Assembly: GCA_905221605.1 (NCBI GenBank)
Contig: CAJNDS010002537.1
Coordinates: 186,001-250,000, forward strand
Direction: 5' to 3'
DNA: 64,000 nt
DNA from: Symbiodinium natans
Taxonomy: Eukaryota; Sar; Dinophyceae; Suessiales; Symbiodiniaceae
Shown here: piece after piece, positions 13,268 through 31,127 of the stretch
Position numbering within the stretch: the first letter of the stretch is position 1
Layout: each line of letters starts with the position of its first letter
Position numbers and translations under genes: made by a program
Notes under the pieces: generated by a model
The model's database searches: none
The model's input: only the letters and a program-made list of their open reading frames with translations
What the model was told of the DNA's origin: nothing

Positions 13268-13332
13268 AGGACGACGAGAGAGAGAGAGGGAGAAGAAAAA
13301 GGAGAAAGAGAGAGAGAGAGAGAAGAAAAACA
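13268..13332. repeat. (GA)n-rich microsatellite
   Basis: Purine-only GAGAGA/GAAAAA stretch leading straight into the ATATAC array. Confidence 0.8.
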
Positions 13333-13339
13333 TGAAATG

Positions 13340-14099
13340 AATCAATATACATATGTACATATATGTATATATATATATATGTATATGTGTATTATATATA
13401 TATATATACATATATACACATATACATATATACATATTTACATGTTTACATATTTACATATTTACATATTTACATATATACATATATACATATGTACATA
13501 TATACATATATACATAAATACATATGTACATATATACATATATACATATATACATATATACATATATACATATATACATATATACATATATACATATATA
13601 CATATATACATATATACATATATACGTTTTTGCATATAGACATATATACATATATACATATATACATATATACATATATACATATTTACATATAAACACA
13701 TATACACGTATACATGTATACACATATACATACATATAGACATATATACATATATACATATTACATATATACATATATTACATATACATACATATATACA
13801 TATATACATATATACCATATATACTATATACATATATACATATATACATAATAATATATACATATTTACATATATACATATATACATATACATATAACAT
13901 ATATACATATATACATATATACATATATATATACATATATACATACATACATACATACATATACATATATACATATATACTATATACAATATACATATAT
14001 ACATATATACATATATACATATATATATACATATATACATATATACATATACATACATATGTACATATGTATATGTACATATGTACATATATACATACA

Positions 14100-14131
<32 letters not shown>

Positions 14132-14242
14132 CACATATATACATATATACATATATACATATATACATATATACATATATACATATATACATACATACAT
14201 ACATACATATATACATATATACATATATACATATATACATAT
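13340..14242. repeat. (ATATAC)n microsatellite, left part
   Basis: About 900 bp of hexanucleotide ATATAC/TACATA repeat with small variants. It continues at 31128 after the retrotransposon, so the two parts were one array before insertion. The long Met-Tyr-Ile-Cys frames across it are artefacts of the 6-bp period. Confidence 0.95.
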
Positions 14243-14496
14243 TGTGAGCTGACATGAGTGCATATGCATCTTCTGCTCTGTGATGCATTAGGACTCGGCA
14301 GACCACCTTGTAGTTTTCCTTTGCATGTAGAGTTTTGCAATTCGTATCAATGCCAATATTTTGGCTCAAGTACCGAGCTTGTGCCTTTGAGCACGGTAGA
14401 GTCGTACAGTAGCTCTTAGGTTGCTGTGCGGTCCGACCGGTGGCCGGGCTGTGATTGCATTGGCTTAGTGCAAGTCCAGTGCTGGTCGACTTCACA
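14243..14496 (+). repeat. 5' LTR
   Basis: 254 bp, TGTGAGCTGACA to GACTTCACA. By eye it is identical to the 3' LTR except that it lacks a 55-nt segment present there after GGTCCGACCGG. It carries ATTTTGGCTCAAG at 14358-14370. Confidence 0.93.
14358..14370 (+). promoter_or_regulatory. Spliced-leader-like 13-mer in the 5' LTR
   Basis: ATTTTGGCTCAAG equals the last 13 nt of the 22-nt dinoflagellate spliced leader and is preceded by GCCA plus a 2-nt offset. Retroposed dinoflagellate genes are known to keep such SL relicts, and the terminal AG can serve again as a trans-splicing acceptor. Here it could mark the 5' end of the element's mRNA. Confidence 0.6.
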
Positions 14497-14668: not shown

Positions 14669-17600
14669 ATGTCCGCAGAGGTTGCAGGTCAGGCCGAGGG
14701 CGTCACCCTCCTCGAAGCTATCGAGGGTGGAGACGTTCCCTATCCCGAGCGGATGAGCTACGTCGCTTGGCTTAAGTGGCGTAGGGAGACTGGCAGCCGT
14801 CCATTGTCCAAGCGGGATGGGATCAGTACTACGCCAGAGCAAGAGGCGGCTCTCTGGCGGAAAGTCATGAAGTTCCTCCATGACGCCGAAGACGAGGACG
14901 AGGATGAGGAGGAAGAAGAAGAGGACTCCGAGCTAGTCCCTGAGGCCTCGGGCGCTGGAGGCGACAGTCCGCCGCGGGTGGACGTCAGCGCCGCGGCTAG
15001 GGAGCTGGCCATGGTCCCTACCGGTGCTGCCTATGTCCCTGCTGCGGCACCAGGGTCCCGCCCGGCGGGACCGTCCGGTCCGCCGTCGACAGCAGGTTCA
15101 GTGCCAGGCACCGCAGAGGGCTTGCAGGCGGAGCTGCGCGCGATTTTCCGTCCAGACCAAGAACCGGTCGCGGACTACTTGACGCGCGTTTCGCGGATAG
15201 TCCTCGCGCTGAAAGCGCATGGAGTCACGGTGAGCTCCCGTGACCTTGACGCCTTAAGCACCAAAGCCACCCTCCTCGCGGATGAGTTCTCCAAGATAGG
15301 CGGGGACTGGCATCCGACAAAGATGGTCCGTCGGCTGCGGACCAGATTCTCGGTCGCGGCTTTGCGCGGTGGCGAGGACCCCGAAGACGCAGAGGAGATT
15401 CAGCGTGAAATCCAATGCATCGGGGAGCTTATCCTCGCGCTAGGGGGAAAAGAAAGCTCGAGCCAAGAGAAGGTTTGGAGCTCCCCGTCCGATGTGCCAG
15501 TTGAAGCCGTGGGGCCGCGTTCCCCAGGGCTCCCACAGCCTGCGACTGCAAGTGGGTTGGGGGTAGGTTTGGACCGTGGAGGTTTGCACACTGCCGAGGT
15601 TGCAGGTGGTCCTTCCGCGGCCCGTGACCTGGGCGCGACGGACGGCGATTCCCCTTTGCGCGCGAAGCTTGCGGCGCTGGAGATGGAGATAGAAGCCCTG
15701 AAGCGAGGTTCAGACGGCGGAGGTTCGCAGACCGGGTCCCAAAACCCGGCGGGCGATTTCGCCGCCGCACTCGCCGCCCAAACTGAAGCGCTGAAAGAAG
15801 CGTTAGCGCAGAGGGGCGGGCAAAGCTCCATAACGACGGTCAAAACTGACCTCACGTGGCCGACGCTGACCGACGACAAGTCGGACGCGCGAGACGTTGT
15901 CCTGTTCTACGAGGAGTTCGAGGACGTCTGCGCGCTGGCCAACAACTGCCGCGGTATGAGTGCGCGCGAGAAGCTGCTAGCGCTACGCAGGCGCTGCCGC
16001 GGCTCGCGCATGAAGACGTACACGAACGCCTACCGCGCAGCGTGGAAGTCGGGAGAGGTTCTCTCCGATCCACAGGCGGTGTACGACCGCATCAAGAACA
16101 AGCACTTGATGTTCGGGGAATCGCGGGAGGAAAGAGAAGTCCGCGTGGATGGTGAGCATGCCTCCCTCGCTAAGGGCAAGCTCACAGGCCACCAATTCGA
16201 GCCTTTGTTTGAGGCATCGATCGCGGACCTTGAGGCGGTGGGTCTTGGGAAGACCCCACGAGAGTTGTATCTCTCGTACCTCCGCAAGATGCCCCCGTAT
16301 CTCCAAAAGGAGATACGAAACGACAAGCGGTTGTGGCCCGGCGATCCCAAGGATGGCGGGCTGCGAGGGCCGCAGACTTGGGAGGAGAGCCACAAGGTCG
16401 TCTTGGAGTACGAACAGAGGGAAGCAGCTCACCGGGCTGTTTCCCACTCTGTGTACTCAGCGACCGGCTCTCAGAGCGCGGACCCGTCGGTCGCGCTAGC
16501 CGAGGCTCAGAAGGAGATTAAGAGCCTCAAGGCCGCTGCGAAGGCTGCTGCGAAAGGAGCAGCTGCCGCGGCCAAAGCTGGCGCGGATCAGACGTTTGCC
16601 GCTGCGTCGAAGGGAGCTGGCAAAGGAGCGGACAAGAAGATCTGCTTCCACTTTCGCGACCACGGGAATTGCCCGAAAGGGGATGCCTGCCCGTACAGCC
16701 ACGACAAGGAGCTTCGCAGAAAAGCTCTCGCGGCCAAGAAGGGTGACCAAACCTTTGCCACGGCGAAAGGTAAGGGCAAGGGGAAGGGAGGTGGCAAGGC
16801 AAAGGCCAACGCAAAGCCTAAGGCTGCGGCCAAAGGCGCGGCAAAGCCACCAGGCACTGTTTGCCCCTTTTTCTCCAAGAATGGGTCGTGCAAGAAAGGA
16901 GCCAGCTGCGACATGGTCCACAACCTGACGACCTCAGGAGGGACGCCGGCCTTGCCTGCCAACTGGGCCGCGCCCTCCGGGGCTTCCATGTCTAACCCCT
17001 TCGCCGCGTTCAGTGTCCAGATAGGAAGCTCAGGCGTCCAGGCAGGCGTCTCAGGAGCCGCAGGACGCGGCGCGGTGCAGCAGCACGCGCTTCCGTTGAG
17101 CAAGGGCGGGCGGGACAAGTTCGCCACCCTGGACGATCTGCCGAAGGACTGGTGGAACCTGGCGGACAACGAGCCAGGAGGCTACCAGTACAGGACGGTA
17201 GTCCAGGTGCTCGACCGTAAGGTCGAGTGCATGCTCGACGGATGCGCCGGCGCAAACCACGTGACAGAGGAACTCGTGGTGGGCATGATGAACCGGGCTG
17301 CAGAGCTGGGGATCGGCACCGAAGATCCCGGCTTCCCGGTCGTGAGACTCGAAAAGTGGGTCCACCCCGAATACGTGCATGGCATTGCTTCGGGAGCCCC
17401 CGTTCCTCTGAAGGGGGCAGCAGTCTTGCGCGTCACGCTGCTGGAAGGCAGGACGGCGGACGACTGTCGCCCCAACACTGAAATTTTCGTGCGATGCAAA
17501 ATCGCAGCCAGGGGGACGTCCGATTGGCACGGACTGATCCTCGGCGGCAGAGCGTTGGACTGCGCCGGAAGGATGGGCCTGGGTTTCAGGCCGGGTCCCG

Positions 17601-20600
17601 ACTTTCACGTCCTCGACACGCTGGGAATCAGGATGCCCAGATGTGAGGATCACAGCAAGACCCGGAAGGACAGGGCCTATGCCTTCGAAGCGCGGTTGTC
17701 AAGCCTGGACGACGCGTCATGCACCGAGCCTGGGGGCGGAAGTCGTGAGCTTCTCCGCTATGACGGGGAAGAGCCGCTCGAGCTCTCGCCAGGTGATGGG
17801 GTGCTGGTGCCAGTCGTGCGGGAGACAGGAGTCTCCGCAGAGGGATCCCTGTCCGAAGTTGTGCTTCCGATTGAGTGTGGGGTTGAGGCTGTGCCAGGTC
17901 TCTGGCCCACGGGAGAGGGTAAAGGGTTTGTGTTGCTTGCAGCCCAAGAGTGTGATCACTCTCTCCAGCCGGGCGAGGTTGTTGCGGAAGTGCGTTCCGG
18001 CCTCGTCAGCACTGCGGCCTGTGGTTGTGGCGCGATTGAGACGGTGTTCGAGTCAGAGCCGTCTCCGCAGGCATGTGCGGATTGTGGGGTCGCCGTTGCT
18101 TCGGTTGACCACGACCCGTGCTTTGCTTGCGGGTCCGCGTCCAGGGCCGCGGCAAGAAGCTTCCAAGGTTGTTCCTCGTGTGCGCGGTCCTTTGGGCGGC
18201 TGCGTACCGGCGCCAGGATCGGTGTGCTATCGGTCCTTGCTGCGGCGACTGTTCTCGCTTCGGTGTGGGGCGGGAGCGGCCCCGTTGGGCGCCCTGTTGA
18301 GGAGCCTGGAGTGCTTACTTGCTTGGACCACCTTCCAAGCGTCGACAGCTGGTGGGAGGCGCCGGGTGGTTACGCGTCTGTGTGGGGTAGGCGCCCTGCG
18401 CAGAAGGACCTTGGAACCCTGGCGGTCGAGAAGGCGCCTTACGAAACGTGCTTGCTTCAGCGCGCAGGTGAGGCGTGGCGTCTTTGGGACACGAGGGATT
18501 TGCGTGCGGCGGAAAGCGTTGCGTGCAGCGATGAAGTTCCCGTCACCGAACGCCTCGCGGTCTTTAGGACGCGCAAGGGGCCACGCTGGGCTGGCTGGCG
18601 TGAGGGATCGGCCACGGCTGGAAGAGGCGCAAGTGACGCTGTGCGCCCAGCAGACGCGGTCGACACGGCGCGCTGCCCGAGCTATCATATCGTGGAGAGC
18701 TGGGACATCGATAAGATGATCGAGGAGCCTCCAACGGACTATTATTATGAGCAGCTCGCGGCAGATATGCGCGCCCGGCACCCTAAGGCGTGCCCGCACC
18801 TCCTCGACCACCTCGTTTCCTTAGAGGGTTTCCTAGACAAGTCAATCTTGTTTGGGTTCTCCTTTGGAATCAGCAAGGCCGAAGTTTGTGTCTCCAAAGG
18901 CAAGCTCCTGGGACACAACATTGGGCGGGACGGGAGTTCGCCTGACGAAGAGCGTTGTCAGGCGGTGATTGACTTTCCCCCGCTCTGGGAGAAGCTTCAC
19001 ATTCAGCAATTTTTGGGTTGCGCAAATTGGTTGCGCGGCTACCTGCCTGTTGAGTATGGGCACGCAGCCAAGATTTTAGGGCAGTGGCAGAAGCCAGGCG
19101 CCGTCTTTCCGGAAGGCGGGCTGGGCTCAGCCGCCACCGAAGGTTGCAAAGCCTTTAAAGCGATTAAGCGCATGATGCAAAACCGCATCAATTTGGCTAC
19201 CTTCGATGAGGCCTCTGCTGCGGATGGGTCGTGTCCCCTTGAGCAGATCGCGGATGCGTCGGGCATCGCGGTAGGGGGCAGCGTCGTGCAGATGACGCGT
19301 GACTTGAGCCAGCTCAAAGTGCTTATGACGCACTCGAAGAGCTTGACCCCCGCGCAGCAGAACTGGCCGCCCTTGATACAGGAGGCGTTTGCCCAGCTCG
19401 AGGTAAAGCGGGCGACACGCCGCATGTTTGGCTCTATTCGGACTCTGTGTTGGACAGATCATGCCAACCTTACCCGAGCGCAAACGTCGGACATCGGAAT
19501 GGATCCGAAACTCGTCCGGTGGGTTGCGGAAATCCTTATGGATGGGTCCGAAATAAGGAGCCTTAGCGGTCGCTCAGCGACGCTGGGTGACAGTTTTAGC
19601 CGCAATCCCAAGGATCGGGATGCGCTCCTTGCGGCGAGGACGAAAGATCTCGAGGGCCTTTCGGGCCAACTCCGAGGTTTCGACCTGGACCAGTACCTCG
19701 GAGAGGGTACTGAGGGTGACGGACCCGTGCCCTGGGCGGTCGGCAACGACGCCGTCCCAGAGCCTGCGGGCCGTGTCCAGGCCGCGGCTGTGCCGATGTG
19801 CGTCGTCGCAGCCCTTCCGGTGCGCGTCATGGTTGTCTTTGACTACGCGCGTTGGAAAGAGCAGGACGCAGAGCTGACTGAGATCAGGCGCGTCTTCCAA
19901 GCGAGCCTCCCTGGAGTTTCTGTGGCTGTCAGGGGTTGTTGGGGTCCGTTTGAGGATACCGACGGGCTTGCCTCGCATTTCGATTGCGGGGCCGGCAGGC
20001 TCGCAGGGACCAAGAAGATCAAGCGGATCAGGGTCGACTTGCTTACTTCGTGTGCCAAGGTTCTTAGGGAAGCTTCGGGGTTTCGTCCGCAGTTCCTCGT
20101 AGGACTAGGGCAAGGCGGGCTTGTCACAGCCGTCCTTAGGTGGCCTTTGGTTGTTGAGCTCACGCTCCAAGCAAGGAACCTGCAGCGCAAGGAAGCCAGG
20201 GCTGTAGGAGAGGCTTGGGCAGGCATCAAGGCTATCTGGGCGGTGCGGCCACGCCTTTGGCGCACGCAGCAAGGCCACTTGGAAGTGGCCGAGGCTTGTC
20301 CGGAACTCAAGAAGGATTTTCCGGAGCCTCCCCTGCGAGGTTTTGGGATCGTAGGGAAGCAGGCATTGGGGGCGGAAGTTCTGCGGTCCTTGAGGCTGGA
20401 CGCGGTTCGTTCCATCGATGATGCCAGCATTAGAGGAATGCTGGACGAACCGTCACGACCCCTCTGGGACCATGAGGGTCTGTGCCTCTGCGGCAAGCGG
20501 ACCTACCTGTTTTCTCGCTGCCCCGCCTGCATCGAGAAAGAGGCAGTCGATACCTCGGTGGAGATAGCCGAGCGGGAGGAGCCCGAACCTCCGCTTGAGG

Positions 20601-23600
20601 GCGACCTTGAGGCCCATGAGGTGGGCCTAGAGGTCAACTCCGTCCTTGCAACTTTGGATAGGACAGGAGGTTTAGTTAGGGTTAGGTCCTCAACCATCCA
20701 GCAATGGGCGGTAGGGTTCAGGACTACGCCCAGGGATGCTCCAGTTCCCACAGCATATGGCATGCTGAGTGGGAAGATATGGAAGAAGAGCCATTCCATG
20801 AAGCTCAGCCTCGGCTCCCAGCACAAGGATCTTTCCAAGTGGGGCGATGTGAAGCCTTACTGGACCACATGGGTGGTTAGAGAAGATGGTGCTGTGGTGG
20901 CGGGGCACAACTGCTCGCCTCTGAATGTGGTTCAGGGCGACATCGTCGTGCATTGGTCGTCAGTAGTGAACTGGCACGGCCACAGACATGTCGTGAATGA
21001 GCAGTGTGAAGTGCTCTGGAGGTCTAATGGCAAAGAGGTTGCCTTAGACCCCTCCTTCGGCAAGCTGATAGCCCTTGTGGGTAGGGTTACTCAGGTCATT
21101 GGCTGGCGGGCAACCGGAGAAGCTTCGGATCCCCGCAGTTCTACCCGGCTGGCGTCAAGGGTCCTTGCTCAATTCTCTTCGTCCAACGAGGGCGTAGAAG
21201 GGCATTGGACCGCGGGCGCTATCAGTCGCGGGAAGAATGCCAATGAGTGCAAGCTGAAGGGTAGAGTTTTGGCGTTTATGGGTGAAGAGCACAAGGGCCC
21301 TGCAGTGGTTCTAGAGCTCGTTAGCCATAGCCCCATCCTGTGCATTTGGGACCATTCCTCAACCAAGGTCAAGGTCGAGTTTAAGGGCGGTGTTCCGTCT
21401 TTGAGCCTGATCGCGGAGGAGGACGAAAATCGTCGTGAGCAGCTTGCGGTCGAGGCAAGGGACGCGGCGAACATTTCGGAGTTCCGAGTCACGGGATCCC
21501 TTCGTACGGCGTGGTACGAGGGCCAGCGGCGCGATCCCTCATTGGCGGGCTCGATTCGCAAGCCAGAGCCGCCGATGGTGATCTCCGGAGACGGGTTGCT
21601 CGAGCGCGAGGTGACCCTCAGGACGGGTCAAACCGTCGTTGTCCCAGTGGTTCCCAACGGGGCTGCGGGCGCGAATGGAGTGACCTGGCGCCGCGCTTGC
21701 TACAATTCAGTCCACTGTGGAGTCCTTGGGGCCCATAGGTCCGCTGAGGTTACCATCAAGCTGCTAGAGAGGGCAGTCTGGTGGCCCGAATTAGAGAAAG
21801 ATGTGCGGACCTGGGTCGCCAAATGTCTCGCTTGCATTAAGGGCCGCTCTCGACCGACGAAGGTCGAGGCTCGTGCGGTCAAATGTGGCGCCGAGACATG
21901 CTGGCAGGAAGTCAGCGTGGACTGTGAAGGTCCAAACCGAGAGGATAGGGAAGGGCATAGGTACTCGCTTACGTACTTCGATTGCCTCAGTCATGCCGTC
22001 CTCCTCGAGCCGATGAGGTCTCTGACTCACGCTGAAGTCAGGAGGGCGTTCGTACGCTGTGTGCTTCGCAGCAGGACGATCCCGAGCCTCATCAGGTCGG
22101 ATAGAGGGCCAGAGTTCAAGAATGCGCTCATGGCAGAACTCAGCGCTATGCTTGGGACCGAGTGGCGGTTCAGCGCGCCCTTGCGGCCTTGTGAGTTGGG
22201 CGCAAACGAGCGAGTCCACCAAGAAGTTCAAAAGGTGCTGGGGGCGGTCGTCAGACAAGTCGGCGCCTCCCTTTCCGAAGCTTGGTCGGATTGGCTCGCG
22301 GTGGCGGAGTACGTCATTGATAACACTCCGGGACCCCACGGGTATACCCCGAGGGACCTAGAGCGGAGCTGGTCGCTCGCTCTACCACTTGAAAAGGACG
22401 TCCTGCGAGACGCCTTGCAGTTTGAACCCATCTCTGATTGGGCTCGGAGCCAGTTTAAGCAGTTCTCGGAACTAGCTGCTGCGGTCCGAGAGCACTGGAC
22501 GCGGTCTTCAGAAGCGCGGGCGAAACTTGCAAATCGCCATAGGCGCACTGTGGACCTTAAGCCAGGCGACCGAGTGGTCTGGAACGCTCCGAGGGCCCGT
22601 TCAGAGGGGGCGAGGCGTGTGCCTTGGGAACCGGGTCTGACCGGCCCCTGGCGCGTGTTGGAAGTCAAGGGCCACAGGCTCACCTTGGAGCCCGTGTCGA
22701 CGGAGTCGGGGGGTACTTCTTCCGCCCGGCGCGGCCCGATGGAGGCGCACGCAGAAGACTGCATTCTTGTTCCTGCGGATGCAGATGGCGCGGAATCCCG
22801 CGAGCCGGTCGTCTTTGAGGACGATGGAACCGGCGGGGACGGCTCGTCTCGCCCCAGCTTAGGGCAACAGGTTCAAGGCGACGCCAAGCAAGTGGAGTTC
22901 ACGCTGACCAGGCGCGGGAGGGATTTCGTCCTCCGCCTTGGTGACCGCATTGCCTATCGGGGTGTAGGTGGAGGCCCGAAGGTGTGCAGGTTAGGGCGGG
23001 TCACGCAGGTAGATGCTGCCCGTGCGCAGGTCGGCGTGCACCGCTATCTCCCCGACGCCAGCGGGGTTCGCGTCAAATGGCGGCTCGCATACATCGCCGA
23101 GGACGGTGCGCTCACGCTTTCAGAGGGGACTCGTCCGGCCCACGAAGCGGTTTCCGTCAGGGAGATCATTTCCAAGATCGACCTGAACCGCGACGGCGTG
23201 CTTGCTGCAGCCTCGGCCAGAAAGTTGGACAAGGGGGCGTACTCGTTGCAGGACAGGACGCTCGAGGACGCGGTCGTCTCCGACGCGGCTAGGAGGCACG
23301 GGTACAGGGTTGTTCCCGCTTTTGTGCAAGGCAAGCAGGCCTACGGGTTCACCTGGAACCTGGCCGCAGAAGAGCACTTAGAGGCCATTAGCGGCGCTGT
23401 TCTGCGCACAGAGCCGAAGGTGCTCGTGATTGGGCTTGAGGGCAAGAATGTGCCCCGGGCTTTCCTCCAACTAGTCGTCCGGTGTGCGCAGGAACGCACG
23501 CGCGCGGGCGCCCACGTCGCGCTGCATTTGCAGGCACAAAAAGGCGAGTGGGAACCCTGGCGGCTAGAGGAGTGGGGCGCCTTGTTTGGGACGCTCGCAG

Positions 23601-26600
23601 AGCCACGCTGGCCTTGGGCTTTCGTGCGGGCTGACATATGCCAGTTCGCGCGGGCCAGTGGCCGCGGCAACCTCGTTGAGAGCGGAGCCCTGTGGCTCGC
23701 CGATTTCAGCTTAGAATCGGTAGGTTTGAGGTGTAGTAGGCCGGATGCGTTAGGCGCAGTGCAGCACAAGCACGTTGAGCGCGCGCAAGCCGACTACAAC
23801 CTCATAGGGGCATCGCTCCAGGACCTTGGTCTGAGGGGCGCAGAAGAGCTGTGCACCGCTGCAGTTGAAAGCTTTCCAGCCACTGCGGGTGCAGATAGCG
23901 CCGCGGCTGCGCCACAGCCCTCTCCAGTCGTTCCCCTCCCGGACGTGCGCTCGGGCGAGGACCTCACGCCAGCAGAGCGTGCGGAGCTGGATAAGGAGGT
24001 GGATAAGTACGCCGCTGAGAAGGAAGCGTTTTGGCGGACCAAGGCGGACGCCAAGGACTGGGATTCCGTCCGGGCTGACCTTGAGGTCTATGCTCTTGCG
24101 GGCGAGAAGGTCGCGGAGGATCCTAGGCGCACCGAGGCCTATAGAGACCTCGTATGGTCGGGTTTGAAGATCGAGCCTGGACCAACCAGACCAGGGCTGA
24201 CCGATGCTGACATCGCAGCCGTCAGGGAGGTCATACGGCGAAAGGCCGCTGGGTTCTGGGTGGAGGACACCACCAGGACCACGGTCAGGAAGTTCGCCCA
24301 TGACTGCATCCCCACCGGGCCGCCGGTCTCGTCCCAGCCTCACAGTCTGAGGGGCGAGTCCGCGCAATGGGTCGACGACAAGCTTGAAGAAGAATGCAAG
24401 CGGGGTCAGTTGATCCGCGGCAGCTCGGCTTGGGGATCTGCGCCGTTTCCGACCAAGGAAATGCCCAGCTACAAGCGGCATAGGAAGCGACGCTTGGTGG
24501 TTGACTACCGCCGTGTGAATGCCCGAATTAAGCGCTCCACGTACTATTGTCGGCGGGGTAGCGATGTGCTCGCCGCCGCAGTGGGTTCGGTTTGGTATAC
24601 CTTCGTGGATGCGGTTAGTGGGTTTAATCAGATTAGGAACACCAAGCGTGCTCGCGAGGTGTTGGCCATTGTGGCAAGATCAGGGAAATATCTCCCTGTC
24701 GGCCTCACCTTTGGCCCGATTAACGGCCCAGATGATTTCAACTTTGTGGTTGATAGGGCCTATGCCCCCGGCAGAGGTAGGCGCCTTAAGTATACTAAGG
24801 AGTGGATAGCCTACGTGGATGATCTTACTGTTAGGACGGGTAGGGTCATTGATGGGCAGTTTTTCACTGATGCCCAAGCCGAGGGGGCGGTGCGCGAAGC
24901 GTGCGCCAAGGGGGCAGTCGCGGCTCCGCAGAGCGCGTCGTCTGCTCTTGAAGCCTTAGGCGTTCGCGGTGCGCACAACTCCAAGCGCGCGAACCATGAC
25001 GCGGCGCGCTCAGACCAGAATCACCCCACGCGCGTTCTGATGCTCAGGATGTTGGGGCTGTTCGGGTGTTTCTGTGTTCAGGGCGGGTGTTTTTGGGGCG
25101 GGCCGTTTCCCAGGTCGCCGGTCTGCGGGCAGAAGGATTTTTCGTCGTTCGTCGCGTGCAGCTTCGTTCGTCTGTCTAGCAGCCAGTGTCTTGCAAGCAG
25201 GCCTAGAGGTTCGGTCCAAGGTCGAAGCAGAAGCCGTAGAAGCCTTAAAGCCCAGACCTTAAGAAAACTCCCCAAACCCCCGCCGCAGCGGTTCAAGTGT
25301 GTTGTAGAGCCTAGGGTAGGTAGTCCCTCCCCGCGTTCGTGCCTGTGCACTGCGCCCCGCTGCGGGTCGCGACCAGACCGCGCGGGAGCGACCAATCGGT
25401 CGCCCGGACCTTCGTGGTCAACCACAAGGCCCCGCTGCGGGCCGTGCCCTGGCCGCGCGGGAGCGGCTACCTACCACTACTGCACACCGGCCCCTTGCAG
25501 CGGGCCGTGTCCTGGCCGCTCAAGGGCGCGTCAGGTTTTCCTCGCCCATCGGAGGTCCAGCAAAGTCGCGGGCCTCAGTGCCGCGATGGGTGGAGGAGGG
25601 TCGAAGGGCAGGGGCAAGAGCAAGAGCCCTGGCCCTAAGGGCCGGAGGGGCCCGCCCACGATTGACGACGTGCAGCGCAGGCTAGTCCGATGCATGCGGC
25701 ACGGCGAAGCTGGTTGCAGAGGCCGGTTCGCTCCGGGCGGCCTCTACCCGGTTGATGAGTTGATCGAGCAACTTGGCATCACCATCAACCAGTACAACCA
25801 GGCGGTCGCGCACGACGCCAACCAGCGGAAGCCGAGGTTAGATACCTCGCACGCTGGCTTCCTGCGTGCCTTCCAAGGCCACTCGGCCGATTGCGGCCAT
25901 CCTATGGGGTTCATGATGGAGGGTCTAAGTGAGACCGCCATCAACGATCTTTTTGACCGGTATGGCCCGGCCATGTGGCACGGCACGGACCTGCATGTCG
26001 TGCCAAGCCTGATTCAGAACGGCCTGATCCCCGGCGGCGGGCCGGGAGGCCGCCTCGGAGTGCACTACGTCCTAGGCCACTGCCCCACGCAGTGGGAGGA
26101 CGGGAGACGCGGGTTCCGCCGCGGATCGACTTGCATAGTCGAAGTCCGGCTGGCGGTCCTGCGGGACGCCGGAGTGCCTATCTATTCGGGAGCGGATGGG
26201 GTGGCTCTCACTGGCCAGATTAGGGCCACCGGCATCTCCCGCATCTGGGCACTCCCCAAGGGCTCGCCTGTTTACTCAGTCTTGATTGCTGAGTTAGAAG
26301 TGGATCGGTTGATCCAGCATGTCGACCTAAGGAGTTTAGGCGACGCCAGTGCGGGCCCATACCCGCCGTTGGGGCGAGGACCGAGACTGGGCACGGTCCA
26401 GGCGTCCCAAGCTGCTGCGGCCAGCAGTGGCGCGGCGAGCTCCTCGACGGTTGTGCTGGCCCCTGCGGGCCGTGTCATGGCCGCGGGGGCCGCCCAACCT
26501 GTTACCCCTCCTAAGGCCGCGCCTAAGGCCAAAGGGCGACCCTCAGGGGCTCCTAAGACTTCGATCGTTCCAGCGAAGCCCAAGGTGTACCCTAGGCGCA

Positions 26601-29584
26601 ACGTCCCTGGCCCCAATGTCCTCGAGGCCGAAGACTCGCTCGAGGAAGAGGCAGCCCGAGAAGCTGAAGGTGTCGAGGAAGATAGTTCCCGCTCGGATCT
26701 CCCCGACACGCGGGCGCCTCCAGCCGCGGTCAAGGTGAAGGAGGACGAGGAGCCCGCTGATGGGGCCCATGCCGAGAGCACAGAGGAAGGGTTCCTCGAG
26801 CTCGGCCAAACGGTGGTCAGCAGCGCGAAGGAGTACCTCGCGCGGTCCGAAGCTCTTCTGACAGCGCAGAAGCTCCAGACGAAGATACTGGAGGTGGCGG
26901 GAACCGCGATGGTGAAGCTAGAGAAGATCACCAAGCGTGAGGAATCCCTCAAAACACTGCGCCGAGAGGGAGAGAGTCAGTCCGCCCCGGCCCCAGAGGA
27001 GCCTCGCCCCAACGCTGACGGCCACTACGGATGCTCAGCTCCTGGATGCGGGCTAGCCTTTGAGTCGCTGGTGCAGTACCACTTGCATCAGGCGGCCTGC
27101 CATGGCGCCTCTCTTCCGCCCAACCTGGGGATCAGCCCCTCCGCACCTCTTGACCCTTTTCGTCAAGACTGGCGGGGACGGTTGTTCCGCCGAGGAAAGG
27201 ACGGTGAGTATGGGGAGGTGCCCATGCTCCGAGTGATTCGGTACCACAAAGCCAATGGGTACGATCACTCGAAGGTCCCGCTCCTGAAGAGAGGGGACCG
27301 AATCCAGCTTGAGGACGGGTCGCACCACATTTATGGTGGTAGTCATCCGCCGGGGTGGCTTCGCGATGACCCGGAGCTGGATCCCGCTCCAGAGAGCAGC
27401 AGTGGAGGGTCCACGCCCAAGAGCGAGCCCAAAGAGGAGGCCGAGCCGAGACCTCCGCGGGAAGCAGCTCCGCGCGGGCGGGCCCTCGAGCCGCCGAAGG
27501 GCGACGTTCAGCAACGCCTTGCGGAGCGTCGTTCCAAACGGGATTATTCGCCAGACCTGGTGACGCCTCTTGACGATCTCCATGCCCAGGAGATCGATTC
27601 CTTCTTCGCGGGCGACCCAGCCGCGGACAGCCTTGACGTCATTCTGATGCGCGCCGAGGTTCGCACTGAGTCCCACCTCAAAGTTGGCCGGGAGGAGGAA
27701 GTGCCCCTGGTCAAGGAGGAACAGGAGGAGGAAACAGAGGTTGTCAAAGACGAGGAGGTCTCGGTTGAGATGGAGGAGGGCACCGCGGATGAGGCGGACG
27801 AAGTCGCCCTCCCAGCCAACCGAGCCTACGTCGAAGGCCGCTTTTACCCCTACGGCAGCTGGCGGCGCTTCTTCTGCGAAGCCATTAACCCGGTCACCGA
27901 GGACCAGTGCCTCACCACGCACGCGGGCGGCCCGAACGCGGGCGCCCCGTGCGACGGCCGATGGATCAATGGGATCGACATCGGGTGGTGGGAGGTAGAT
28001 CCTCAAACCGCGCCGGAGCAATGGCGGCGGAGGTTTTCTGCCGAAGAGCTTGAAGAACAGCAAGCGCGGGCAGATGCCGCGAGGCTTCTCAGCGATGAGG
28101 AACTCGCTGAAGCCCTCCAGGCGGCCGAGGAGGCGCGGGCGGCCGAGCGCGCCAAGAAGCGGGAGCGGCGCCAGGCGGAGAAGGCAGAGCGCGATGATCA
28201 CATCAGCGAGGCGCTCCGCATAGCAGGGTGGCAGTGCCCTAACTGCTATGAATGGAACCTTTCATTCAGGCAGCTGTGCTTTCGGTGCAGCACGCCTCTC
28301 CGCTTGGCAGAGGTCGTTTCCCGCGGGATCCCGGATCCGCGGCGCGGCGAAGAGAGGGACTCGGGCTCCGAAAGCAGCCAGGACGAGCTGGAGTACGAGA
28401 TCCTTCTGGCCAATCGCGCGATGGACCAGGAAACCATCCAGCCTCTTCTTAGAAATAAACACAAGAAGAGGGGCGGCAAGAGACGTCGCGAAGAGGCGAC
28501 GTACGGCAAGGGCCGCGACCCTTGGAGTGCGTGGGCAGACGCCCGTGGCAAGGGCCAGGGCAAGCCGAAGGGCAGAGGCAAGTCCGATGCCAAGGGCAAG
28601 CCCAAGGGGAGGGGCAAGTACGCCTGGGGCGCTTTCGCCGCGGGCATTGTTGCCGCGCTCCAACCCCGCCCAAGCACAAGCTGGGTCCCAGCTTTCCCGT
28701 GCGGGTCGGCCCGGCCGCCGCCAAGTGTTCCGCTTCCGCCGCGGACCCCCTTTTTCCTGGGTCGCGGGCTCCTCAATCGGTTGATGCACGCCCTCAACGG
28801 GAACATCAACGGCTGGTGGGGCCTGGCGGCTGCAGCGTCGGCGCCGATTGCCTTGCAGTTGCACCGCGGGGTTGTGCATGTTGTCGAGGACTCCATGCAC
28901 GCGGTTGCAACGGTTTCGGCCGACGTTGTCGAGGAAATCGGCCATGGGGCCAGGCGGACCGTGTGGGTCGCCGGAACAGCCATCACTCTGGTAGTAGTGA
29001 TTTTGTGCGGCGCTGTTCTGTGGTACGTGAGTCGTGCCGTTGCCAATCGCATTGCGCATATGCGACATGGCAACACCGCGGCCCCTGAGGCGCGGCTGTC
29101 TCAACTCCTTGGCTCTGAAGCGACGTTTGAGGTCGCGAGCTCCAAGAAAGGGGTAACCCATAAGGTTTGGGTGCACCTCAAGGAGGAGACAGCTGCCTGT
29201 GGCTGTCGTGCTTACCTGGCAGAAGGACGCTGCGGGCATTGCGATGCCGCAATGGACACCGCTCGTTCCTTAGGGTTTTTGCACGCGGCCCAGCGAGGCG
29301 CGGGTCCTGCGCTCACAGACTCCATTCGGAGTACCGCCTCCGAAGCCCTGGCTAAGGGTAAGGTTGTGTTGGGTTTGGGAAACAGTGAAGGATGTTTCTC
29401 CCAACTTGCGGCTAAGAGCCGCGGGCTCTCCTGCTTTCAGGGGCTCGCGGGTCGTGACCTGGCCGCGGCAACAGCAGATGGAGCGAGCGCAGCCCACGCA
29501 CAGTCCGGCTCCGTGCAACGTGCCGCCACTCCCCTTTGTGGCGCGCACGCCAGGCCGGAGGAACAAGGGCCCAGCCCCCGCTAG
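14669..29584 (+). CDS. Giant retrotransposon polyprotein (4,971 aa) with permuted RT
   Basis: Uninterrupted from ATG 14669 to TAG 29582-29584. Order by residue: acidic tract about 71-90; Gag-like helical domain 394-592; Lys/Ala-rich linker; CCCH fingers 659-678 and 732-751; protease-like 841-975 (D857); Cys-rich plus hydrophobic segment about 1115-1210; RT thumb/connection 1371-1460; RNase H 1505-1655; two domains I do not recognise, 1690-1905 and 2010-2260; integrase 2341-2678; a third unrecognised domain 2835-3030; RT fingers/palm 3176-3407 (YVDD 3382-3385); basic, low-complexity linker; Tpt1-like 3663-3880; long charged region with C2H2 4122-4145, RanBP2-type finger from W4521, membrane helix 4765-4787 and SWIM finger 4844-4857. 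Ty3-type Pol is usually 1,000-1,300 aa, so this is several times larger. Another Met, at residue 3640, stands before the Tpt1 domain and could start a second product. Confidence 0.9.
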   Translation: MSAEVAGQAEGVTLLEAIEGGDVPYPERMSYVAWLKWRRETGSRPLSKRDGISTTPEQEAALWRKVMKFLHDAEDEDEDEEEEEEDSELVPEASGAGGDSPPRVDVSAAARELAMVPTGAAYVPAAAPGSRPAGPSGPPSTAGSVPGTAEGLQAELRAIFRPDQEPVADYLTRVSRIVLALKAHGVTVSSRDLDALSTKATLLADEFSKIGGDWHPTKMVRRLRTRFSVAALRGGEDPEDAEEIQREIQCIGELILALGGKESSSQEKVWSSPSDVPVEAVGPRSPGLPQPATASGLGVGLDRGGLHTAEVAGGPSAARDLGATDGDSPLRAKLAALEMEIEALKRGSDGGGSQTGSQNPAGDFAAALAAQTEALKEALAQRGGQSSITTVKTDLTWPTLTDDKSDARDVVLFYEEFEDVCALANNCRGMSAREKLLALRRRCRGSRMKTYTNAYRAAWKSGEVLSDPQAVYDRIKNKHLMFGESREEREVRVDGEHASLAKGKLTGHQFEPLFEASIADLEAVGLGKTPRELYLSYLRKMPPYLQKEIRNDKRLWPGDPKDGGLRGPQTWEESHKVVLEYEQREAAHRAVSHSVYSATGSQSADPSVALAEAQKEIKSLKAAAKAAAKGAAAAAKAGADQTFAAASKGAGKGADKKICFHFRDHGNCPKGDACPYSHDKELRRKALAAKKGDQTFATAKGKGKGKGGGKAKANAKPKAAAKGAAKPPGTVCPFFSKNGSCKKGASCDMVHNLTTSGGTPALPANWAAPSGASMSNPFAAFSVQIGSSGVQAGVSGAAGRGAVQQHALPLSKGGRDKFATLDDLPKDWWNLADNEPGGYQYRTVVQVLDRKVECMLDGCAGANHVTEELVVGMMNRAAELGIGTEDPGFPVVRLEKWVHPEYVHGIASGAPVPLKGAAVLRVTLLEGRTADDCRPNTEIFVRCKIAARGTSDWHGLILGGRALDCAGRMGLGFRPGPDFHVLDTLGIRMPRCEDHSKTRKDRAYAFEARLSSLDDASCTEPGGGSRELLRYDGEEPLELSPGDGVLVPVVRETGVSAEGSLSEVVLPIECGVEAVPGLWPTGEGKGFVLLAAQECDHSLQPGEVVAEVRSGLVSTAACGCGAIETVFESEPSPQACADCGVAVASVDHDPCFACGSASRAAARSFQGCSSCARSFGRLRTGARIGVLSVLAAATVLASVWGGSGPVGRPVEEPGVLTCLDHLPSVDSWWEAPGGYASVWGRRPAQKDLGTLAVEKAPYETCLLQRAGEAWRLWDTRDLRAAESVACSDEVPVTERLAVFRTRKGPRWAGWREGSATAGRGASDAVRPADAVDTARCPSYHIVESWDIDKMIEEPPTDYYYEQLAADMRARHPKACPHLLDHLVSLEGFLDKSILFGFSFGISKAEVCVSKGKLLGHNIGRDGSSPDEERCQAVIDFPPLWEKLHIQQFLGCANWLRGYLPVEYGHAAKILGQWQKPGAVFPEGGLGSAATEGCKAFKAIKRMMQNRINLATFDEASAADGSCPLEQIADASGIAVGGSVVQMTRDLSQLKVLMTHSKSLTPAQQNWPPLIQEAFAQLEVKRATRRMFGSIRTLCWTDHANLTRAQTSDIGMDPKLVRWVAEILMDGSEIRSLSGRSATLGDSFSRNPKDRDALLAARTKDLEGLSGQLRGFDLDQYLGEGTEGDGPVPWAVGNDAVPEPAGRVQAAAVPMCVVAALPVRVMVVFDYARWKEQDAELTEIRRVFQASLPGVSVAVRGCWGPFEDTDGLASHFDCGAGRLAGTKKIKRIRVDLLTSCAKVLREASGFRPQFLVGLGQGGLVTAVLRWPLVVELTLQARNLQRKEARAVGEAWAGIKAIWAVRPRLWRTQQGHLEVAEACPELKKDFPEPPLRGFGIVGKQALGAEVLRSLRLDAVRSIDDASIRGMLDEPSRPLWDHEGLCLCGKRTYLFSRCPACIEKEAVDTSVEIAEREEPEPPLEGDLEAHEVGLEVNSVLATLDRTGGLVRVRSSTIQQWAVGFRTTPRDAPVPTAYGMLSGKIWKKSHSMKLSLGSQHKDLSKWGDVKPYWTTWVVREDGAVVAGHNCSPLNVVQGDIVVHWSSVVNWHGHRHVVNEQCEVLWRSNGKEVALDPSFGKLIALVGRVTQVIGWRATGEASDPRSSTRLASRVLAQFSSSNEGVEGHWTAGAISRGKNANECKLKGRVLAFMGEEHKGPAVVLELVSHSPILCIWDHSSTKVKVEFKGGVPSLSLIAEEDENRREQLAVEARDAANISEFRVTGSLRTAWYEGQRRDPSLAGSIRKPEPPMVISGDGLLEREVTLRTGQTVVVPVVPNGAAGANGVTWRRACYNSVHCGVLGAHRSAEVTIKLLERAVWWPELEKDVRTWVAKCLACIKGRSRPTKVEARAVKCGAETCWQEVSVDCEGPNREDREGHRYSLTYFDCLSHAVLLEPMRSLTHAEVRRAFVRCVLRSRTIPSLIRSDRGPEFKNALMAELSAMLGTEWRFSAPLRPCELGANERVHQEVQKVLGAVVRQVGASLSEAWSDWLAVAEYVIDNTPGPHGYTPRDLERSWSLALPLEKDVLRDALQFEPISDWARSQFKQFSELAAAVREHWTRSSEARAKLANRHRRTVDLKPGDRVVWNAPRARSEGARRVPWEPGLTGPWRVLEVKGHRLTLEPVSTESGGTSSARRGPMEAHAEDCILVPADADGAESREPVVFEDDGTGGDGSSRPSLGQQVQGDAKQVEFTLTRRGRDFVLRLGDRIAYRGVGGGPKVCRLGRVTQVDAARAQVGVHRYLPDASGVRVKWRLAYIAEDGALTLSEGTRPAHEAVSVREIISKIDLNRDGVLAAASARKLDKGAYSLQDRTLEDAVVSDAARRHGYRVVPAFVQGKQAYGFTWNLAAEEHLEAISGAVLRTEPKVLVIGLEGKNVPRAFLQLVVRCAQERTRAGAHVALHLQAQKGEWEPWRLEEWGALFGTLAEPRWPWAFVRADICQFARASGRGNLVESGALWLADFSLESVGLRCSRPDALGAVQHKHVERAQADYNLIGASLQDLGLRGAEELCTAAVESFPATAGADSAAAAPQPSPVVPLPDVRSGEDLTPAERAELDKEVDKYAAEKEAFWRTKADAKDWDSVRADLEVYALAGEKVAEDPRRTEAYRDLVWSGLKIEPGPTRPGLTDADIAAVREVIRRKAAGFWVEDTTRTTVRKFAHDCIPTGPPVSSQPHSLRGESAQWVDDKLEEECKRGQLIRGSSAWGSAPFPTKEMPSYKRHRKRRLVVDYRRVNARIKRSTYYCRRGSDVLAAAVGSVWYTFVDAVSGFNQIRNTKRAREVLAIVARSGKYLPVGLTFGPINGPDDFNFVVDRAYAPGRGRRLKYTKEWIAYVDDLTVRTGRVIDGQFFTDAQAEGAVREACAKGAVAAPQSASSALEALGVRGAHNSKRANHDAARSDQNHPTRVLMLRMLGLFGCFCVQGGCFWGGPFPRSPVCGQKDFSSFVACSFVRLSSSQCLASRPRGSVQGRSRSRRSLKAQTLRKLPKPPPQRFKCVVEPRVGSPSPRSCLCTAPRCGSRPDRAGATNRSPGPSWSTTRPRCGPCPGRAGAATYHYCTPAPCSGPCPGRSRARQVFLAHRRSSKVAGLSAAMGGGGSKGRGKSKSPGPKGRRGPPTIDDVQRRLVRCMRHGEAGCRGRFAPGGLYPVDELIEQLGITINQYNQAVAHDANQRKPRLDTSHAGFLRAFQGHSADCGHPMGFMMEGLSETAINDLFDRYGPAMWHGTDLHVVPSLIQNGLIPGGGPGGRLGVHYVLGHCPTQWEDGRRGFRRGSTCIVEVRLAVLRDAGVPIYSGADGVALTGQIRATGISRIWALPKGSPVYSVLIAELEVDRLIQHVDLRSLGDASAGPYPPLGRGPRLGTVQASQAAAASSGAASSSTVVLAPAGRVMAAGAAQPVTPPKAAPKAKGRPSGAPKTSIVPAKPKVYPRRNVPGPNVLEAEDSLEEEAAREAEGVEEDSSRSDLPDTRAPPAAVKVKEDEEPADGAHAESTEEGFLELGQTVVSSAKEYLARSEALLTAQKLQTKILEVAGTAMVKLEKITKREESLKTLRREGESQSAPAPEEPRPNADGHYGCSAPGCGLAFESLVQYHLHQAACHGASLPPNLGISPSAPLDPFRQDWRGRLFRRGKDGEYGEVPMLRVIRYHKANGYDHSKVPLLKRGDRIQLEDGSHHIYGGSHPPGWLRDDPELDPAPESSSGGSTPKSEPKEEAEPRPPREAAPRGRALEPPKGDVQQRLAERRSKRDYSPDLVTPLDDLHAQEIDSFFAGDPAADSLDVILMRAEVRTESHLKVGREEEVPLVKEEQEEETEVVKDEEVSVEMEEGTADEADEVALPANRAYVEGRFYPYGSWRRFFCEAINPVTEDQCLTTHAGGPNAGAPCDGRWINGIDIGWWEVDPQTAPEQWRRRFSAEELEEQQARADAARLLSDEELAEALQAAEEARAAERAKKRERRQAEKAERDDHISEALRIAGWQCPNCYEWNLSFRQLCFRCSTPLRLAEVVSRGIPDPRRGEERDSGSESSQDELEYEILLANRAMDQETIQPLLRNKHKKRGGKRRREEATYGKGRDPWSAWADARGKGQGKPKGRGKSDAKGKPKGRGKYAWGAFAAGIVAALQPRPSTSWVPAFPCGSARPPPSVPLPPRTPFFLGRGLLNRLMHALNGNINGWWGLAAAASAPIALQLHRGVVHVVEDSMHAVATVSADVVEEIGHGARRTVWVAGTAITLVVVILCGAVLWYVSRAVANRIAHMRHGNTAAPEARLSQLLGSEATFEVASSKKGVTHKVWVHLKEETAACGCRAYLAEGRCGHCDAAMDTARSLGFLHAAQRGAGPALTDSIRSTASEALAKGKVVLGLGNSEGCFSQLAAKSRGLSCFQGLAGRDLAAATADGASAAHAQSGSVQRAATPLCGAHARPEEQGPSPR
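15849..16925 (+). other. Gag-like domain with two CCCH zinc fingers
   Basis: A helical, highly charged segment has the look of retrotransposon Gag (YEEFEDVCALANNCRGMS, LYLSYLRKMPPYLQKEI). Two C-x8-C-x5-C-x3-H fingers follow: C659, C668, C674, H678 and C732, C741, C747, H751. CCHC knuckles are normal in Gag; CCCH fingers in their place imply a different RNA-binding mode. Confidence 0.7.
17188..17592 (+). other. Retropepsin-like protease domain
   Basis: MLDGCAGANHV resembles the D-[ST]-G-A active-site loop of aspartic proteases, with Cys in place of Ser/Thr (D857). The later HGLILGGRALD matches the hydrophobic ILG-x-D-xL segment near the end of the retropepsin fold. If active it would process the polyprotein. 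The D-G-C loop is unusual. Confidence 0.6.
18779..19640 (+). other. RT thumb/connection plus Ty3-type RNase H
   Basis: HLLDHLVSLEGFL, then KGKLLGHNIGRDG and IQQFLGCANWLRGYLP, match the segment that normally follows the YxDD motif in Ty3/gypsy RT (FLGH-xIS-xxG and LRSFLGL-xNYYRRFI equivalents). RNase H follows with D1529 (ADAS), E1572, D1597 (TDHANL) and D1641 (GDSFSR), so all four metal ligands are present. No fingers or palm precede it: the 180 residues upstream contain no RT motif. Confidence 0.85.
21690..22700 (+). other. Integrase (HHCC, DD35E, GPY/F-like tail)
   Basis: Zinc ligands H2349, H2356, C2386 and C2389. Catalytic D2418 (VDCEG), D2478 (RSDRGPEF) and E2514 (GANERVH) give D-x59-D-x35-E, the exact retroviral/Ty3 integrase spacing. 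A basic stretch ending LKPGDRVVW, then GLTGPWRVLEV, resembles the GPY/F module. It should insert the cDNA into chromosomal DNA. Confidence 0.92.
24195..24890 (+). other. RT fingers/palm with YVDD, C-terminal to integrase
   Basis: RRLVVDYRRVNARIK (finger strand), YTFVDAVSGFNQI (motif A, D3314), LPVGLTFGPINGPDDFN (equivalent of the LPFGLxNAPxTFQ block) and WIAYVDDLTV (motif C, YVDD 3382-3385). The homology stops about 25 residues after YVDD, which is where the thumb at 18779 begins in an ordinary RT. All catalytic Asp residues are present. Confidence 0.9.
25655..26310 (+). other. Tpt1/KptA-like RNA 2'-phosphotransferase domain
   Basis: The domain shows VRCMRHGE, FLRAFQGHS, MWHGTDLHVVPSLIQNGLIP and a following GGRLGVHYVLGHC. 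These match KptA/Tpt1 in order (L-RHxPE, IRAxQGHS, YHGT-xxxxxSIxxxGLxP, RxHVHLS). The Arg-His-Arg-Arg quartet falls at R3677, H3678, R3733 and R3795. Tpt1 enzymes move a 2'-phosphate from an RNA splice junction to NAD+, and some ADP-ribosylate nucleic-acid 5' ends. A role in RNA or cDNA end processing is inference. Confidence 0.8.
27022..29245 (+). other. C-terminal zinc-finger and membrane-segment region
   Basis: C2H2 finger C4122/C4127/H4140/H4145; an alternating acidic/basic region with probable coiled coil (EELEEQQARADAARLL); RanBP2-type finger W4521-x-C-x2-C...C-x2-C; Lys/Gly-rich stretch; one clear membrane helix (VWVAGTAITLVVVILCGAVL); and a SWIM-type finger C4844-x-C4846-x8-C4855-x-H4857. 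An envelope-like role for the membrane segment cannot be shown. Confidence 0.65.
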
Positions 29585-29589
29585 GAGTT

Positions 29590-30223
29590 CTCCAGTCAAA
29601 GAAGCGGAATTCCTTGCGGGCGGGCCATACGTTCAGGCCGCCCAAACGCTGCTTGGGTCTGGAGCAGCAGAGGATGTGATCTACATCCGCGCGTATAGCT
29701 TAGATTGCCCATCCTGCATCGAGGCAATCGAAGCGTCGCTTAGCAAGGGCGCAAGCGTTCGGATTGTCGCCGACATGGGGCAATGCCACCGCACCAAGCT
29801 TCAGTGGCAAGCGTTGAAACGCTTGGCGGCTGCAGGTGCCGAGGTGAAGGTGGGTTGTGGCACATCCGTGCGCGACGCCTAGCTCGCGACGGCCGCGGGG
29901 CTAAGGTAGGCACTGGGATTCAAGGGCTTCACCATGCCAAGGCCCTTTGCCTACTGCGGCCTGACGGCGCGGTGGTGCTGATTGGGAGCCTCAATTTTAC
30001 CACAAGCAGCAAGGCCAATGCGGAGGCAGGGCTTAGGCTTGAGGTCCCCAAGACGCACTCAGTCGTGCAGTCCTACATCGAGGATTTCCAGAGGGTGTCG
30101 GCTGAGGCATTCTCCCTCGATGAGGCGGTCGCAAAGCGCCCTCAGTTGGAGCGAGCCAGTAGCTCCAACGTTGCTGGCATCGCCGCTCGTGCCCCCAACA
30201 CTGCTCCACAGGGTATCGAGTAG
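29590..30223 (+). pseudogene. Phospholipase-D-like (HKD) module, frame-broken
   Basis: The first half (DVIYIRAYSLDCPSCIEAI, then ASVRIVADMGQ) is read in the frame +1 to the giant ORF, up to about 29870. The second half (GLHHAKALCLLRPDG, VVLIGSLNFTTSSKANAE) is read in the giant ORF's own frame, up to the stop at 30223. H-x-K and G-S-x-N-F of a single HKD motif are present, as in bacterial Nuc and the Zucchini/MitoPLD nucleases. Two opposite one-base shifts, one before 29584 and one near 29860, would merge it with the polyprotein. They may be real lesions, programmed shifts or sequence errors. The predicted role is a nuclease or phosphodiesterase. Confidence 0.6.
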
Positions 30224-30818: not shown

Positions 30819-31127
30819 TGTGAGCTGACATGAGTGCATATGCATCTTCTGCTCTGTGATGCATTAGGACTCGGCAGACCACCTTGTAGTTTTCCTTTGC
30901 ATGTAGAGTTTTGCAATTCGTATCAATGCCAATATTTTGGCTCAAGTACCGAGCTTGTGCCTTTGAGCACGGTAGAGTCGTACAGTAGCTCTTAGGTTGC
31001 TGTGCGGTCCGACCGGACGCACTCAGGCGTAGCTGCACAAGTGCTTGAACTCGCGAAGTCGTAAAACAGCGTGGCCGGGCTGTGATTGCATTGGCTTAGT
31101 GCAAGTCCAGTGCTGGTCGACTTCACA
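30819..31127 (+). repeat. 3' LTR
   Basis: 309 bp, identical by eye to the 5' LTR apart from a 55-nt extra segment (ACGCACTC...AAAACAGCG, about 31016-31070). The same TG...CA ends are present. Confidence 0.93.
30934..30946 (+). promoter_or_regulatory. Spliced-leader-like 13-mer in the 3' LTR
   Basis: Same ATTTTGGCTCAAG as in the 5' LTR, at the same offset from the LTR start. Confidence 0.6.

Follow-up and report, generated by a model that had tools for sequence, protein, structure and literature searches.

The stretch analysed here, called the window, is 64,000 nucleotides of Symbiodinium natans DNA (assembly GCA_905221605.1, contig CAJNDS010002537.1, positions 186,001 to 250,000 of the forward strand), and it very probably holds a young member of a Ty3/gypsy-derived long terminal repeat (LTR) retrotransposon lineage of recent activity, probably one of Symbiodiniaceae, in which the reverse transcriptase (RT) is encoded in circularly permuted form and its two halves work together. 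The encoded order is the palm behind motif C, the primer grip, the thumb, and RNase H, followed by the integrase and then by the fingers and palm motifs A to C. The order recurs in diverged relatives and in a high number of copies, and change in both halves is mostly synonymous. The features that carry this reading are, in order along the window:

14243..14496, + strand, 5' LTR, TGTGAG...TTCACA (alignment of the two LTR regions; repeat D12)
14669..29584, + strand, single open reading frame (ORF) of 4,971 codons for the Gag-Pol-like polyprotein P0001 (ORF list and translation)
18686..19648, + strand, first RT half, residues 1340-1660, with the palm behind motif C, primer grip, thumb/connection, and RNase H (D1529, E1572, D1597, D1641) (Pfam RT_RNaseH; profile matches to the RTs of Ty3 and cauliflower mosaic virus, CaMV; RT fold matches, secure for the RNase H part)
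21566..22588, + strand, integrase, with H2C2 zinc finger at residues 2341-2393 and core at 2427-2507 (Pfam; kept in 9 of 10 relatives)
24152..24982, + strand, second RT half, residues 3162-3438, with fingers/palm and motifs A (D3314), B, and C (YVDD, 3382-3385) (Pfam RVT_1; profile match to CaMV RT)
24812..24823, + strand, the catalytic YVDD (motif C), with the cut in the order following it (translation)
25013..25033, + strand, D(H/Q)NHPTR peptide closing the palm module (40 motif-pattern matches in 245 proteins), after which comes a spacer that differs between subfamilies
30819..31127, + strand, 3' LTR, equal to the 5' LTR except for one 55-bp indel (LTR alignment)

In the ORF protein, Pfam placed RT_RNaseH (PF17917) at residues 1528-1622 (E 2e-8, above cut-off), ahead of the integrase, and RVT_1 in one stretch only, at residues 3272-3388, so that the palm comes after the integrase. 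The RVT_1 match scored 27.0 bits in the whole protein, below the cut-off of 29.6, whereas the segment alone scored 32.7 bits (E 8.1e-8). The integrase finger matched Integrase_H2C2 (PF17921) above cut-off; the core match to rve, at 32.0 bits, fell short of the cut-off of 32.6, and the D, D, and E of the integrase were identified by eye alone. When the window was scanned in six frames with both profiles (open pieces of at least 40 amino acids, E up to 1), neither half turned up a second time. Thus the permuted order within one open polyprotein, which the initial annotation had proposed, was borne out, the residues that it had named (D1529, E1572, D1597, D1641, D3314, Y3382, D3384, and D3385) are all where it had put them, and the second RT that would have spoken against it is absent both from the ORF (Pfam) and from the six frames of the window. 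Its description of the first half as thumb, connection, and RNase H was right in what it included but too narrow, since the rest of the palm, with the primer-grip hairpin, is also there.

The same annotation had held that the two halves are complementary and cleanly cut behind motif C, and had suggested that they be compared with profiles of known RTs. Both halves match the RTs of Ty3 and CaMV, and within a given solved RT the two half-profiles cover neighbouring stretches that do not overlap. In CaMV RT (8r0s_A) the palm profile covers residues 148-310 (E 3.5e-9) and the thumb profile 316-398; in Ty3 RT (4ol8_A) they cover 106-200 and 245-475. In all 11 chains matched by both, the thumb half starts only after the palm half has ended; these chains represent about five kinds of RT (caulimovirus, Ty3, murine leukaemia virus, and two foamy viruses), with E values up to 1.4 for the weakest. 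Therefore, the cut lies just behind motif C, as had been claimed. A few other matches, all with E of 0.39 or more, were set aside as chance: ribosomal protein L35 (four entries) and HasAp (one) for the palm, and ClpC and pilin for the thumb.

The arrangement was then followed into other proteins. A search with the full-length protein, in which 1,171 candidates were scored, gave 10 relatives, eight of which have both halves in the permuted order while two are without the palm. Searches with the two half-profiles produced 182 and 288 matches; the best 120 of each were examined, and 245 proteins were obtained in all. Among these best-ranked proteins, at the thresholds used, 13 have both halves (the window's element included), 114 the palm only, 108 the thumb only, and 10 neither. 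All 13 are permuted and none is canonical, that is, 12 of 12 when the window is excluded; P0003, with its palm cut short, and P0225, which consists of fragments, count among the 13. In the same best-ranked set, which may include the window, no thumb profile was found within 400 residues after the palm in the 71 palm matches that reach motif C and have at least 150 residues behind it, and no palm within 400 residues before the thumb in the 43 thumb matches with at least 150 residues ahead. Both halves occur together in Durusdinium trenchii (P0003 and P0225) and Cladocopium goreaui (P0005), and single halves also in Symbiodinium species and Effrenium voratum; D. trenchii and E. voratum are Symbiodiniaceae according to a taxonomy look-up. 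When viral sequences in IMG/VR were scanned for both halves, 43 and 19 pattern stretches were obtained and none was confirmed, in a collection from which records near the window's genome may be excluded.

Identity to the window among the listed relatives falls to 50% in the palm half and 55% in the thumb/RNase H half. At every catalytic position, at least 97% of the non-gap rows of the domain matches (window and relatives) have the expected residue: the D of motif A in 124 of 125; the Y, first D, and second D of motif C in 105, 106, and 105 of 108; and the D, E, D, and D of RNase H in 111 of 113, 115 of 115, 115 of 115, and 104 of 105. Across 12 elements, P0225 having been dropped from this set, pairwise distances in one half agree with those in the other (Mantel r 0.91), and the trees of the halves share the main clades P0009+P0010, P0008+P0058, and P0004+P0042. 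The similarity between relatives ends behind the palm module, at D-H/Q-NHPTR, and begins before the thumb, at HIVE.

The window's own genome (759 Mb) holds at least 150 palm matches, the window copy included, these being the ones scored out of 277 candidates; 131 of them have the top bit score, 149 are listed as 100% identical, and 149 are free of stops. In a search of this genome with RVT_1, 150 matches were scored out of 2,439 candidates. Twenty copies, the best-ranked palm matches besides the window's own, were fetched with 5.8 kb upstream of the palm, and 17 of them have thumb/RNase H, integrase, and palm in that order on one strand; since the 20 were picked as best-ranked, they are biased towards intact copies. 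No thumb was found within 1.5 kb on either side of the palm in the 30 top-scoring palm loci of this genome, which comprise 25 distinct DNA sequences and include the window's own copy, entered twice (n=31). The distinct changes in the palm were 42 synonymous to 0 nonsynonymous, in a set chosen by 100% protein score. The corresponding counts were 43 to 5 in thumb/RNase H (15 sequences) and 72 to 7 in the integrase (16 sequences), from gap-free full-length matches in 14 and 15 of the 20 copies, respectively, each with the window added. Under random change the synonymous share would be about 0.23-0.24. Because change is mostly synonymous, purifying selection seems to act on the integrase as well as on both RT halves.

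These searches answered the doubts that the initial annotation had itself raised. Copies with the same order exist in the window's own genome and in relatives, including D. trenchii and C. goreaui, and the canonical neighbourhood of palm and thumb that would have contradicted it was met neither among the 71 palm and 43 thumb matches nor at the 30 palm loci. Since all 12 relatives with both halves share the order, as do 17 of the 20 fetched copies, the element is very unlikely to be a chimera of two nested elements.

The two LTRs, aligned to each other, have zero substitutions and differ solely by the 55-bp indel, and both have the TG...CA ends of Ty3/gypsy (Metaviridae) elements; TGGGGGC is located 2 bases past the end of the 5' LTR. 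The insertion site is a TA-rich array of 8-bp repeats surrounding the element, and therefore a target duplication cannot be read. This array is of the (ATATATAC)n type, with the same repeat on both flanks (13296-14242 and 31128 onward). The remaining features of the element are:

16643..16909, + strand, two CCCH-type zinc fingers, Gag nucleocapsid-like, residues 659-678 and 731-747 (Pfam zf_CCCH_4 and zf-CCCH, both below cut-off)
17126..17698, + strand, retropepsin-like region, residues 820-1010 (LDGCAGAN at the expected D-S/T-G position; putative protease, identified by eye)
25670..26212, + strand, Tpt1/KptA-type RNA 2'-phosphotransferase domain, residues 3668-3848 (Pfam PTS_2-RNA, E 4.4e-8)
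about 29600..30220, + strand, phospholipase D (PLD)-like C-terminal domain, outside the ORF and split over two frames (PLDc_2 profile)

A segment homologous to the retropepsin-like region is present in 9 of 10 relatives with 36-74% identity, and LDGCAGAN is also kept in relative P0006; the Pfam scan of the ORF protein gave no protease match for residues 820-1010. An open spacer (25034-25590) lies between the palm module and the ATG that precedes Tpt1, and such spacers are dissimilar among subfamilies; several carry F-P-Q peptides (pyrimidine-rich, CAG) that, by eye, may be splice acceptors. The Tpt1/KptA domain behind the palm was found by Pfam in four of the five relatives scanned (P0002, P0004, P0005, and P0008, not P0063). 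P0006 has, as read by eye, a methyltransferase-like Rossmann region (VHFVEVFGGSGNLTRAV...) between integrase and palm. The PLD-like tail matches the PLDc_2 profile in two frames, the first giving profile positions 8-73 with E 0.0038 and the second positions 70-130 with E 2.3e-5, each below cut-off; in several relatives PF13091 (precomputed) is present on one protein.

With Ty3/gypsy elements (Metaviridae; solved example Ty3 RT, 4ol8) the window's element shares LTRs, an LTR-type RT with motifs A and C whose best solved relatives are CaMV and Ty3 RT, an RT_RNaseH-type RNase H with its D-E-D-D, and a DDE integrase with H2C2 finger and rve core. It differs in that its RT is non-contiguous, the part behind motif C standing before the integrase and fingers/palm after it, and in its ORF of 4,971 codons, its Tpt1 domain, and its PLD-like tail. 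The element is a permuted derivative of Ty3/gypsy and not a strict member because the contiguous order of protease, RT, RNase H, and integrase was tested for and is lacking, both in the window and in the relatives. Nor does it have the order of Copia (Pseudoviridae), integrase before a contiguous RT-RNase H, for here RNase H precedes the integrase. Permuted RNA-dependent RNA polymerases (RdRPs) are defined by motif C standing before motif A within the palm; in the window, D3314 precedes YVDD 3382-3385. Such RdRPs occur in several RNA-virus lineages (birnaviruses, permutotetraviruses, and Yan-like viruses; PMC7508674), and as presented in the available part of that source they resemble our case in that a rearranged polymerase order is inherited across a whole lineage, but there the catalytic loop has moved within the polymerase domain, while the window keeps A-B-C in order and has the rest of the RT with RNase H upstream of the integrase. 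Gmr1-type Ty3/gypsy elements have the integrase upstream of an RT domain that is treated as one unit in the part of PMC8220671 available to us (citing Goodwin and Poulter 2002). The window's element shares an integrase upstream of part of its RT, but this RT is cut in two and only fingers/palm lie downstream instead of a whole contiguous RT. The SymbioDIRS-Dnmt3 retrotransposons of Symbiodinium are DIRS elements with differing Pol domain orders (PMC5890265), and so are likewise dinoflagellate retroelements with varied Pol order and added enzymes, but they carry a tyrosine recombinase and a methyltransferase and, in the available text, no split RT is mentioned, whereas ours is an LTR element with a split RT. 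Accessory domains are treated in PMC6338049, in the available text of which the split-RT arrangement is not among them. In the literature searched, available in part and covering few subscription papers, no description of a permuted RT in an LTR element was found.

Several results weigh against an intact, working, permuted RT. The protease-like region is without the canonical D-S/T-G motif, and the PLD tail is frame-broken in the window copy. The initial annotation's open polyprotein between near-identical LTRs stands, with the correction that the element as a whole is not intact, the tail being split behind the stop. The trees of the two halves differ in where they place the window's element and P0003. 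Three of the 20 fetched copies lack the arrangement (two have the palm only and one has thumb and integrase on the opposite strand), and in 3 of the 17 others (L032, L046, and L047) the thumb/RNase H is interrupted or short; L046 and L047 share one thumb defect, lie 12 kb apart on a single contig, and may stem from one duplication. The structure model of fingers/palm is poor (predicted local distance difference test score, pLDDT, 46), and therefore the palm half rests on sequence profiles. The model of the thumb half is middling (pLDDT 71), with TM-scores over the model of 0.27-0.36 for the first ten RT matches and a root-mean-square deviation of about 10 Å or more for matches that span the connection; its RNase H part alone fits RTs closely (about 2.6 Å).

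A permuted RT would need a new break that the fold tolerates and a bridge joining the old ends. The break lies in the loop after the catalytic hairpin. Next to it the family has additional residues, about 60 at the palm end, reaching to D(H/Q)NHPTR, and about 40 ahead of the thumb (HIVE...PTDYYY; helix 18-31 in the model), and these could serve to dock the halves. The bridge between the old N- and C-termini has about 1,500 residues, including the integrase, and would be long enough for most geometries. We infer that the halves, once folded together, form a single ordinary RT active site with polymerase activity, whether they assemble in cis or in trans. The element's own protease may cleave the polyprotein, upon which the thumb-RNase H chain would assemble with the fingers-palm chain; because a retropepsin-like region is present, this is the likeliest route, which we favour by a little. 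Assembly inside an uncleaved or partly cleaved polyprotein comes next, as a tentative second choice.

The alternative that deserves most weight, although we consider it unlikely, is a domain replacement in which the original fingers/palm were lost and those of another LTR element were captured downstream of the integrase, the same enzyme working. It is favoured by the finding that palm tail and thumb head have no overlap relic that would mark an origin by duplication and loss (hhalign P 0.51 and 0.24), and also by the lack of any canonical-order relative among the best-ranked 245 proteins, so that the ancestor is not in sight. However, the matches of the two halves fall in one broad RT group, with CaMV and Ty3 best; the halves fit without overlap, and their distances agree, although this agreement shows only co-inheritance among those 12 elements. 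An origin by duplication with overlap, in which the palm tail would equal the thumb head, was considered and rejected, as the similarity seen by eye was unsupported by the profile comparison.

Non-autonomous elements copied in trans are common, and the RT might be supplied by another element, leaving the split RT as a passenger or with a different role, for example, RNA binding; this is improbable given that the catalytic residues are kept across diverged relatives and that change in both halves and the integrase is mostly synonymous. Dinoflagellates trans-splice their mRNAs, and trans-splicing between copies or back-splicing of the element's RNA could connect the end of the palm with the start of the thumb and so restore a contiguous RT. 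That similarity between relatives breaks off after the palm module and begins ahead of the thumb would agree with this, but the frame is open through all 4,971 codons and we rate such reordering as slightly less probable still. Repetitive assemblies can be wrong, yet an assembly artefact or a nested insertion of two dead elements is the least probable explanation, and a very improbable one, for one ORF spans all the parts and their order is repeated in the two-half relatives and in the copies of the same genome.

We know of no natural RT described so far in which the chain is cut after motif C and the two halves have exchanged places on either side of the integrase. If the permuted reading holds, the RT fold can accommodate an interruption that separates the catalytic hairpin from the thumb, and the element would be a natural starting point for split-RT studies. 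Pipelines that require palm, thumb, and RNase H to be contiguous would then miss an abundant class of elements. The chances are about even that this is a natural split RT, in which the polyprotein gives rise to two individual chains, fingers-palm and primer grip-thumb-RNase H, that are set apart in it by the integrase and further domains and that reassemble into one polymerase, and that this design has spread as a successful lineage through the Symbiodiniaceae dinoflagellates.

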